Shown here: positions 58,301-60,288 of the stretch, piece after piece
Numbering within the stretch: the first letter of the stretch is position 1
Layout: each line of letters starts with the position of its first letter
Source: Chiridota heheva
Lineage: Eukaryota > Echinodermata > Holothuroidea > Apodida > Chiridotidae
Length of the DNA: 64,000 nt
NCBI GenBank assembly: GCA_020152595.1
Contig: JAIGNY010004337.1
Coordinates: 1,014,501 to 1,078,500 of the forward strand
Direction of reading: 5' to 3'
Translations under genes and position numbers: made by a program
The notes under the pieces: model-generated
Told to the model about the DNA's origin: nothing
The model's database searches: none
What the model saw: the letters and a program-made list of their open reading frames with translations, nothing else

Positions 58301-60288
58301 ATCCATCCCTCCCAGATCCCATTCATCATTGGCATTTCCAGCCTGATGCCATCCATCCTTCTAATACAGTCTATTTCTCCCAATGCCATCCATTGCTCCC
58401 AAATGCCATCCATCCAACCTAATACCGTCCATTTTTCTCCAATGCCATCCATTTTTCCCCAATGCCATCCATCTCTCCAAGATGCTGTCCATCCCTCCCG
58501 ATACCAACCATCCCTCCTGGATACCCACCATCCCTCCTGGATATCCACCATCCCTCCCAGATACCCACCATCCCCCTTATGCAATCCATTCTCCCTGATG
58601 GAGTCCATCCCTCCCTGATGCCATCCATCTCTCCAAGATGCTGTCCATCCCTCCTGAATACCCACCATCCCTCCTGGATACCCACCATCCCTCCCAGATA
58701 CCCACCATCCCCCTTATGCAGTCCATTCTCCCTGATGCCATTCATCTCTCCCAGATGCAATCCATCCCTCATAGACCCTATCCATCTTTCTTGATGCCAC
58801 CCATCCTTCCTTATCATGTCCATTTCTTCCTGATACCATTCAACCCTCCCAATGACTTAATCCCTCCCTGGTGTCATCCATTGGAGATAACGGGGAGGGC
58901 ATATACAATATTAATTGCAATTTAACTGTGATAACTCAGACTGTTAGGTAACTTAGATATTGTGTTAACATTTATATTGTTAAATAACTTATGATATCCT
59001 GACATATGGCAATATTTCTTCTTAGTTTAACCATGATCATATACAGTCTATATACCAAATTCACCCAAACAACGACAGCTTCACTCAATAATCTTACAAA
59101 GACAACATACCAGAAGTACGCCCGTAGTGACAGACACTTTTAAATATCACCCATATTTCTATAATTATCAGGAAATTTCCTTCATATTTCGGGAAATTTT
59201 GTTTGATTTTCAGGAATTTTTTTTAGTTTCTGTCATTTGACCATTTTTCTTTTAATTTCAGGAAAATTTTAAGAAAGTTCCTTCCTTGTGGGGAATTGTT
59301 GTCAGATTTTCCCAAAATTTCCAATTATTGTACCAAGATTTGCTATCATTTTACACAAATTTTCAATAATTTAACCATATCTGCCTTCCTTTTTTGTAAT
59401 TTTATTTACAACAACAGCTTCACTCAATAATCTTACCAAGACAAAATACCAGGAGTACGCCCATAGTGACAGACACTTGAAAACCTCCTACTAGGAGACC
59501 TCTGTTCTCTGGGACTGCAAGCTCCGCTATGTACACCTGTTATCAAAAAGACTGAAATGAGACTACTATCCCTCGCCTTCTCTCTCATTTGCGGTCATTG
59601 GCACCTACCAGGCTAACAGTCTCTTTCACACCCACCGACATGAGAAAAGGCTTGAGAACATCTTAGACTCAATTTTCATGAACTCGATCAATTTTGATCT
59701 TGAATGAAGCTTGAACTTGAATTTAACAAATCGTGGAACAAGCAGAAGTATTTGATGTGACTTTTGCCACAGGATGATCACACCAAAAATAGTGCTCAAG
59801 CAAAAAGAATGGAAAAGCAGTTTTACAACATTCATATTTGCATGGAAAGTATTTGCATGGGAAGAATTTCTACTTTTTCATGAGAAAAATGTTGAGAGAG
59901 CTGAAAGATGATTTCAATGAGTGATTTTTGAAAACAGTTTTAATGGTTTGTAGACAGGGTGTAACAGCTTTGCCTAATAGTTAACCAATGCTTTTTCCTT
60001 ACCCCTCATCCTCTCCCATCCTCAATTCCCCCCAAAATTAAATAAATCCAGCAAATTTACCAAATTTCTAGAACAAACTGAAAATTCCTTACAACCAAAA
60101 TTTGAACAATAAACAAATATTTTTCAAAACCCAATTGGTGCAAAAAGTTCCATAAATTATACTATAATTATGCAAATTAAGGGCTTACCTAATATGTAAA
60201 CAAGCAAAATGCCAAGGGTCACTGACACCTGAAATCCAGTGCCCAAAAAACCACGAACTTCAGGATGAGCAAGCTCTGAGATATACAC
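46206..60288 (-). CDS. SLC2A-family sugar transporter, GLUT8-like, 3' part (5' exons not in window)
   Basis: Twelve-TM facilitative sugar transporter of the major facilitator superfamily. Minus-strand exons in coding order: 60288-60189 or 59536-59437 (alternative copies), 57352-57137, 55899-55641, 51532-51431, 48185-47977, 46349-46206. All junctions are GT-AG and the phases agree, apart from one extra base near 57200. Family signatures: [13 protein letters not shown] (TM4-5 E/R motif), [21 protein letters not shown] (TM7), [10 protein letters not shown] (loop 8-9), [13 protein letters not shown] (TM10), [12 protein letters not shown], then RKRSN stop. The nearest families known to me are class III GLUT8/GLUT6 and the insect Tret1 trehalose transporters; the substrate cannot be read from sequence. 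N-terminal exons (TM1-TM4) are not found in 60.3-64 kb and presumably lie to the right. Introns are packed with minisatellites and transposons. Confidence 0.9.
46945..47590. repeat. 17-bp array of AAAGGTCA motifs, ~38 copies, in transporter intron
   Basis: Unit AAAGGTCATGGATCACT, highly regular. Each unit holds AAAGGTCA, the monomeric response element of NR4A-type nuclear receptors (established knowledge). No function is shown by the sequence alone. Confidence 0.95.
47977..48185 (-). CDS. Transporter exon with TM10 [13 protein letters not shown] motif
   Basis: Acceptor CCAACAG. Reads (V)[50 protein letters not shown], donor GTAAGT, phase 0. Confidence 0.93.
48393..48652 (+). mobile_element. 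tRNA-derived SINE, copy 2, in transporter intron
   Basis: tRNA-like head (GTGGTGTAGCGG, box B GGTTCAAGCCT), then the same body as the 9.3-kb copy: CACCACAACTGGTTATCAAA, GACATTGACTTGGTTGTC, CGTATTGGGCGTTTCGTG, ending TGTGTGTTCA. Confidence 0.75.
48835..49600. repeat. 41-bp minisatellite, ~18 copies, in transporter intron
   Basis: Unit GTTTTTATGTGGTTATCAAA then TGATCAATTTCATTGCTACTT. Some units carry a 6-bp insertion (CTGTAC or similar). Confidence 0.95.
49766..50225. mobile_element. 467-bp-family inverted-repeat element, copy 2
   Basis: Ends GGTAGCATGGAACTAAT and, inverted, GGTAGCACAGAACTAAT. Internal sequence (AGTCAAGTTCGGGGTCCTTT, TATCTCTCGGATGAG, CCCATGACATGGGACC) is the reverse complement of the 32.8-kb copy. 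Confidence 0.75.
50697..51062. repeat. 43-bp array with a palindrome in every unit, ~8 copies
   Basis: Units contain GGCGGATATATCCGCC, a perfect 16-bp palindrome in the best copies, then TGCAGTCTGTAGTGCG, GATTGTGCTGG. In a transporter intron. Confidence 0.92.
51431..51532 (-). CDS. Transporter exon, TM8-9 region
   Basis: Acceptor TCCATTAG. Reads (G)[33 protein letters not shown] plus one base, donor GTAAGA. 102 nt with phases matching both neighbours. Confidence 0.85.
51585..52365. repeat. 24-bp minisatellite, ~32 copies
   Basis: Unit CCTGGGGTAATTCAATATCA plus ACAG, with TCTACAG and TCTACATC variants. In the transporter intron 5' of the exon at 51.5 kb. Confidence 0.95.
52637..55520 (-). 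mobile_element. I-group LINE, longest copy in the window, inactive
   Basis: Antisense to the plus strand, inside a transporter intron. In coding order: QRNIRSLKA near 55480 (start of the endonuclease ORF), then directly [54 protein letters not shown] (intact catalytic box), an RNase H-like part ([26 protein letters not shown]) and the tail GGTCAAATTGTG near 52675. The frame is broken repeatedly. An RNase H domain together with YVDD places it in the I group by family knowledge. Most of the endonuclease domain is missing. Confidence 0.82.
55641..55899 (-). CDS. Transporter exon with TM7 QQFSGIN motif
   Basis: Acceptor CCCCTACAG. Reads [56 protein letters not shown], ending in phase 1 before GTAAGA. 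Its acceptor and first bases are repeated about ten times immediately upstream. Confidence 0.93.
55903..56740. repeat. ~85-bp array carrying copies of a splice acceptor, ~10 copies
   Basis: Read on the minus strand, each unit has GGTCCCCTACAG followed by GAGTCTCTCCTTGTACAG, nearly the acceptor and first bases of the transporter exon at 55899, then GGCAAGAAGAGTTGCAGAT, ATTTTCCACCAATACCCAAC. It lies immediately upstream of the real exon and stays open in some frames. Confidence 0.92.
57137..57352 (-). CDS. Transporter exon with PETPR motif (one-base frame discrepancy)
   Basis: Reads [37 protein letters not shown], then shifts by one base. Dropping one C from the run near 57198-57201 gives [13 protein letters not shown] then NSLDNSN, ending in phase 0 at GTAAGT and joining ESLSVSEF of the next exon. 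That acidic linker is what the family has here. Confidence 0.82.
57640..58880. repeat. ~20-bp minisatellite, ~60 variable copies
   Basis: Unit CCATCCATCCCTCCCAGATG with ATACCATCCAT and GATACCCACCATCC variants. It fills most of the intron between the transporter exon at 57.2 kb and the alternative exons. Confidence 0.93.
59102..59148 (-). pseudogene. Partial third copy of the alternative exon
   Basis: Repeats the 3' half of version A ([17 protein letters not shown]) and the donor and intron that follow (GTAAGATTATTG...). It lacks the 5' half and the acceptor; the sequence upstream is unrelated low-complexity TTCAGGAAATT-type repeats. It is a duplication relic that cannot act as an exon by itself. 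Confidence 0.7.
59160..59400. repeat. Degenerate TTTCAGGAAATTT repeats
   Basis: Many imperfect TTTCAGGAAATTTCC-type units. The same theme appears at about 2065-2200. Confidence 0.5.
59437..59536 (-). CDS. Transporter alternative exon, version A (TM4/TM5)
   Basis: 100 nt, acceptor GATAACAG, donor CTTG|GTAAGA, ending in phase 1. Encodes [16 protein letters not shown] then [17 protein letters not shown]. Same length, phase and motif as version B but clearly diverged, so both look usable. Including both copies would break the frame. Confidence 0.82.
60189..60288 (-). CDS. Transporter alternative exon, version B (TM4/TM5)
   Basis: 100 nt, acceptor CGACAG, donor TTAG|GTAAGC, ending in phase 1. 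Encodes [16 protein letters not shown] then [17 protein letters not shown], keeping the Glu and Arg-Gly of the sugar-transporter motif. Splices in frame to 57352. Confidence 0.85.

Follow-up and report, generated by a model that had tools for sequence, protein, structure and literature searches.

The members of a mutually exclusive exon cluster lie next to one another and resemble each other in length, phase and sequence (PMC3228551, PMC5740500; papers are cited throughout from parts of their text). Described examples, namely myosin heavy chain, Dscam and the 855 such exons of a human survey, are adjacent internal exons, similar in length and equal in phase, whose homologous products form one structural element, and double inclusion can break the reading frame (PMC5740500, PMC3228551). 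Transporters with such exons include SLC39A14 and SLC25A3, the exon use of which is documented as tissue-specific (PMC5740500), and NKCC2 (SLC12A1), a solute carrier with three homologous exons, 4B, 4A and 4F, one of which supplies the TMD2-CL1 segment, the choice determining the affinity for ions (PMC7818487). No member of solute carrier family 2 is named among the known clusters in the available parts of PMC5740500 and PMC3228551. A mutually exclusive pair covering transmembrane helices 4 and 5 (TM4/TM5) of a GLUT or Tret1 gene was likewise absent from the matches listed for open-access text (titles and abstract starts), which is weak evidence of absence. Here we analyse two exons, A and B, on the minus strand of a 64,000-nucleotide (nt) stretch of the holothurian Chiridota heheva (the window, C3496:1014501-1078500, from a searched assembly of 1.10 Gb in 3,744 contigs). 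They probably form an ancient two-member mutually exclusive cluster in a GLUT6/8/Tret1-like facilitative sugar-transporter gene.

As in the known clusters, A and B stand next to each other inside the gene and match in length and phase, their products are homologous and belong to one structural element, and including both breaks the frame. They differ from the known clusters in that they have been seen in genomic DNA only, and in that no competing RNA structures were found in the intron parts tested. With the class III GLUT proteins (GLUT6, GLUT8 and insect Tret1) the gene has in common a Sugar_tr domain across the tested exons. SLC25A3 and SLC39A14, transporters with the type of splicing proposed for A and B, belong to other families. 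By analogy, NKCC2 may be seen as the nearest functional parallel, although its substrates are unrelated, its exons are three rather than two, and a functional effect has been demonstrated there. The fold of NKCC2 also differs from that of a sugar transporter. The splicing type is already known, and the transporter family would probably be new for it.

Most of one sugar-transporter gene lies on the minus strand of the window. The part around A and B is arranged as follows, in the order of the gene.

Exon e2, upstream of A and B, C3496:1094977-1094771: outside the window, about 20 kb upstream on the same contig.
Exon A, 60189..60288, minus strand: 100 nt, entered in phase 0 and left in phase 1, 33 residues; end of TM4, TM4-5 loop and TM5.
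A-B intron, 59537..60188, minus strand: 652 nt.
Exon B, 59437..59536, minus strand: 100 nt, same phases in and out as exon A, 33 residues.
Partial third copy of B, 59069..59144, minus strand: 3' part of exon B with donor and flank; not an exon.
Exon e3, the next exon common to both forms, 57137..57352, minus strand: 216 nt; covers TM6 and the beginning of the cytoplasmic loop, with PSPETPRY.

The AG acceptor and GT donor are intact at both copies, the borders reading ...CACGACAG/GTGTAT...ATTAG/gtaagc for A and ...GATAACAG/GTGTAC...CTTG/gtaaga for B. Coordinates, the two lengths of 100 nt, splice sites and peptides are those that the first-pass annotation of this DNA had given when it proposed A and B as alternative exons. 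Its claim that the products are homologous but diverged, with a common end phase, was borne out as well: the two exons share 56 of 100 nt, and their products 23 of 33 residues. Their similarity is beyond chance, tblastn with A as query finding B at E = 5e-11 in the window and at E = 1.1e-6 in the 1.1-Gb genome. Membership of the gene in the sugar porter/SLC2 (GLUT) family is indicated by Pfam Sugar_tr matches above the curated cut-off of 22.3 bits. Each copy passes this cut-off alone, A with 32.7 bits (profile positions 125-157) and B with 24.0 bits (positions 125-156), and the scores rise to 54 bits for A joined to e3 and 45.4 bits for B joined to e3. Since the match of e2 spans profile positions 50-125 and both copies start at 125, A and B compete for one position of the protein.

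Exon e2 ends with ...GMASLSTP in phase 0, exactly ahead of VYI, and is followed by the donor gtaagata. It follows that A or B each joins e3 at 57352 in frame, as the first-pass annotation had stated. Inclusion of A and B together, or of neither, breaks the frame and gives a premature stop in e3, so that the exclusive choice already claimed for this pair would be forced by the frame. Like length, homologous sequence, adjacency between e2 and e3, and compatible splice sites and reading frames are all found in A and B, as in a mutually exclusive cluster. In genes of the Drosophila X chromosome, such features were seen in only 0.56% (90/16,180) of the exons that are not mutually exclusive (PMC3228551).

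The partial copy of B, 76 bp long and 339 bp downstream of B, matches it at 69 of 76 nt. It is decayed: GTAAG is present and no AG stands directly before it. Beyond A, B and this fragment, no exon copy was found in the upstream intron (E up to 0.5). The fragment, the position of e2 outside the window and a surplus base in e3 (see below) had all been overlooked in the first-pass annotation.

How A and B have diverged speaks to their age. Identical codon positions number 21/33 at the first base, 27/33 at the second and 7/33 at the third. By the count of Nei and Gojobori, the proportion of differing synonymous sites (pS) is 0.99 (26.2 sites, saturated), and that of nonsynonymous sites (pN) is 0.25, corresponding to a nonsynonymous distance (dN) of 0.30. 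Since synonymous change is saturated and protein divergence is low, the duplication is old, with both copies selected at the protein level for most of the time since. The same 44 differences were placed in 20,000 unconstrained runs of a neutral simulation, a crude model of a short exon with uniform rates and a fixed transition bias. On average 9.6 of 33 residues stayed identical, with a maximum of 17, against 23 observed, and the open frame was kept in 31% of runs. Despite the crudeness of the model, the gap between observation and neutrality is wide.

We infer from this that one exon was duplicated long ago and that both copies have been retained by purifying selection. A productive messenger RNA would run from the phase 0 end of e2 to A or B and on to e3. 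In cells, messages with both or neither would be frameshifted, meet the stop in e3 and undergo nonsense-mediated decay. Both proteins should work as transporters (shared sugar-binding Gln and motif E..P..RG); gating kinetics, stability or location are the properties in which they would most likely differ, and sugar preference might differ modestly.

As to how exclusion would be achieved, a steric block by a short intron is unlikely because the A-B intron measures 652 nt, and a clash of U2 and U12 sites is unlikely because both donors, judged by eye, read GTAAG. The acceptor tracts of A and B contain 13 pyrimidines in 20, the fewest of the eight checked, the other six having 15-18; alternative exons often have few pyrimidines in the acceptor tract. 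Pairing between flanking introns was compared with 8 block shuffles for each pair, the intron before A (20 kb) being represented by its last 1,500 nt. The best duplex between that intron and the A-B intron reached -27.8, inside the range of the shuffles (-25.7 to -30.0), and the best between the A-B and B-e3 introns reached -32.0, again inside the range (-30.1 to -36.7); pairing may still operate in either place, and neither duplex was retained as evidence for exclusion. The frame rule combined with decay of the wrong messages is a possible mechanism of exclusion, and the only one that the sequence itself would support.

Of the other explanations, the one that survives best, though improbable, is that A and B are the remnant of a tandem gene duplication. 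They would then come from neighbouring paralogues joined by deletion or by collapse in the assembly, the constraint would date from before the fusion, and one copy would be unused. Saturated synonymous change is equally expected of old paralogues, tandem and partial duplications abound at the locus, and arrays of tandem genes have been named as giving false positives in predictions of this kind (PMC3228551). Against this, the 103.5 kb around A and B contain no second full copy of any flanking exon (e2 to e7), the sole extra piece being a fragment of e6 that spans 19 residues and contains a stop. Genome-wide searches were made with A, B, e2, e6 and the DNA of e3, and scored the best candidates only. 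Among these, no further close copies of A (3 scored) or B (2 scored) were found, and e2 matched itself only (2 scored). Exon e6 matched itself and one distant exon at 35%, with no close paralogue among 8 scored, and the DNA of e3 matched itself only. A distant exon on contig C3446 was also matched by A (E = 0.2, 50% over 34 residues); a second comparison put its identity at 48% with A (33 residues) and 34% with B (29 residues), and it looks like an exon of a class I GLUT. Because no close second gene was matched by A, B, e2 or e6, a fusion of tandem paralogues appears disfavoured, with no sister gene to point to among the best candidates scored.

Next comes the explanation that the gene, or this allele of it, is dead, and that the pair is the fossil of a cluster that once functioned; we consider it quite improbable. 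It draws on e3, which measures 216 nt, although 215 would be required by the phases at its ends. The surplus base lies near 57197 (57190-57200): the frame is lost after ...EYLRGP and resumes one base later, and the coding length from e2 to e7 with A or B comes to 1,237, a multiple of three plus one. The intact reading frame of a working transporter gene is not present in this assembly. A query of the assembly with e3 DNA returned the window itself only, with neither a haplotig nor another copy of e3, and the gene contains partial exon copies. The remaining seven exons (e2, A, B, e4, e5, e6 and e7) argue the other way, as all are open, with mutually compatible phases, an AG before each and a GT after each save e7, which ends in a stop. 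Moreover, a lone one-base difference beside GG is a common type of assembly error. The surplus base is either such an error or a null allele. As it hits both isoforms alike, it is uninformative on A versus B, and it is a warning against claiming function before it is settled.

It is hardly credible that B acts chiefly as a poison exon beside a normal exon A, giving unproductive A+B messages and so lowering expression: such messages do yield a stop in e3, but a poison exon need not keep 23/33 residues, the family motif and in-frame phases of its own, and pN is far below pS.

A mutually exclusive cluster of two ancient exons has its own difficulties to face. The case was built from the genomic DNA of one species. 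The surplus base of e3 disrupts the frame of both isoforms in this assembly. B fits the family less typically than A (24.0 versus 32.7 bits). Pairing between flanking introns did not rise above the shuffles, and no mechanism of exclusion was found beyond the frame rule. Finally, of the 65 exons predicted from such features in the Drosophila survey, only 26 had an existing annotation as mutually exclusive, a rate that its authors think understated (PMC3228551).

What the choice between A and B might change can be read in part from their differences, which fall at residues 4, 8, 11, 14, 16, 17, 25, 27, 31 and 32 (10/33, numbered from the first V). Gln 20 is common to both; it aligns with Q168 of XylE (B against 4ja3, residue 1 = 149, exon ungapped) and by chain position is Q166 of GLUT5 (4ybq, residue 1 = 147). 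The conserved TM5 sugar-binding glutamine of SLC2 (GLUT) proteins is found in A and in B. Residues E5, P9, R12 and G13 (motif E..P..RG) are kept in both, E5 and R12 presumably belonging to the inner salt-bridge network. At residue 27, the position of XylE Q175 and the only further TM5 site that we could link to the choice of sugar, A has Ile, which is typical of GLUT proteins, and B has Val. The inner salt-bridge network and the role of the TM5 sugar-binding Gln are treated in PMC10322154. In XylE, Q175 adds a hydrogen bond to glucose, the GLUT proteins having Ile; Q175I alone is without glucose transport and needs L297F too (PMC13095657), the double mutant being found also in PMC8784342. Because Q175I alone is insufficient in XylE, a large effect of this position is argued against. 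As we read the alignments, the other nine differences are spread over the cytoplasmic end of TM4, the TM4-TM5 loop and those parts of TM5 that lie away from known sugar contacts, so that gating, folding or trafficking is at least as likely to be affected. We do not predict a large substrate switch, and effects on gating or stability would be as likely. In searches of the PDB, GLUT1 was matched at 26.4 bits by A and 15.5 by B, and XylE at 27.6 bits by B and 18.3 by A; we draw no interpretation from these scores.

The first-pass annotation had suggested that the choice of exon could tune specificity or kinetics. Its homologous alternative exons and frame-forced exclusivity stand, with constraint added to them, and the tuning of sugar specificity is weakly supported, given the shared Gln and the Ile/Val exchange. 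By analogy with exon 4 of NKCC2 and ion affinity, one may imagine a GLUT that alters its own sugar handling by a mutually exclusive TM4-TM5 swap, the Ile/Val exchange and a changed loop beside the inner gate setting preference or turnover by tissue. We regard this as rather unlikely.

The rest of the gene downstream of e3 consists of the following exons.

Exon e4, 55641..55899, minus strand; presumably the TM7-TM8 region.
Exon e5, 51431..51532, minus strand.
Exon e6, 47977..48185, minus strand.
Exon e7, the last coding exon, 46206..46349, minus strand; ends in a stop.

Joined, e4 to e7 score 175.4 bits with Sugar_tr, and the sites of e2, e4 and e6 are among the 9 matches of a genome-wide search for the family. 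A piece bearing TM1 (...GYTIGYSSPALPMLTKEFHLTDAQQSWFG) lies near coordinate 82,100-82,270 of the extended window. We take the gene to be GLUT6/8/Tret1-like (class III) from its motifs rather than from a tree; no class III sequence turned up in the collections searched. The 19 pattern matches in viral contigs included no relative. Prokaryote genomes gave 73 pattern matches, among them 4 Gilvimarinus loci at 39-41% identity, which are uninformative on the exon question.

Repeats and partial copies occur at several places in the gene. The 3' end of e6 is partly duplicated just downstream of that exon (47834-47890, minus strand), with 16/19 residues, an in-frame stop and GC for the donor GT. Together with the partial copy of B, this makes two exons of one gene with partial 3' copies. 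An 85-bp tandem array of 10 copies (93% matches) occupies 55884-56735 and runs on to the e4 acceptor at 55900; its unit is similar to the e4 acceptor region together with the opening bases of that exon. From 56740 to 55900, CCCTACAG occurs 7 times, the last being the real e4 acceptor, and GAACAGGAG occurs twice. In the B-e3 intron, a minisatellite of roughly 20 bp, with about 52 copies and 70% matches, spans 57731-58770.

Elsewhere in the window, the following were noted.

5011-5481, minus strand: open reading frame encoding a cysteine-rich domain of the Frizzled type (Pfam Fz, 54.5 bits), which looks like the N-terminus of a Smoothened protein.
17131-17469, plus strand: open frame without a match in a Pfam search.
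18530-18871, plus strand: open piece matching WD40 repeats (PF00400, 31.5 bits against a threshold of 27); with the preceding frame it resembles an F-box/WD protein.
26477-27727, plus strand: long open frames, by eye like the reverse transcriptase of a long interspersed nuclear element (LINE).

If the proposed cluster is real, one gene would give two transporters alike in everything but the segment with the TM5 sugar-binding Gln and the inner-side TM4-TM5 loop. The pair would then be a natural swap experiment on the control of GLUT kinetics or specificity by TM4-TM5, and solute carrier family 2 would join the carriers that are diversified by exon choice.

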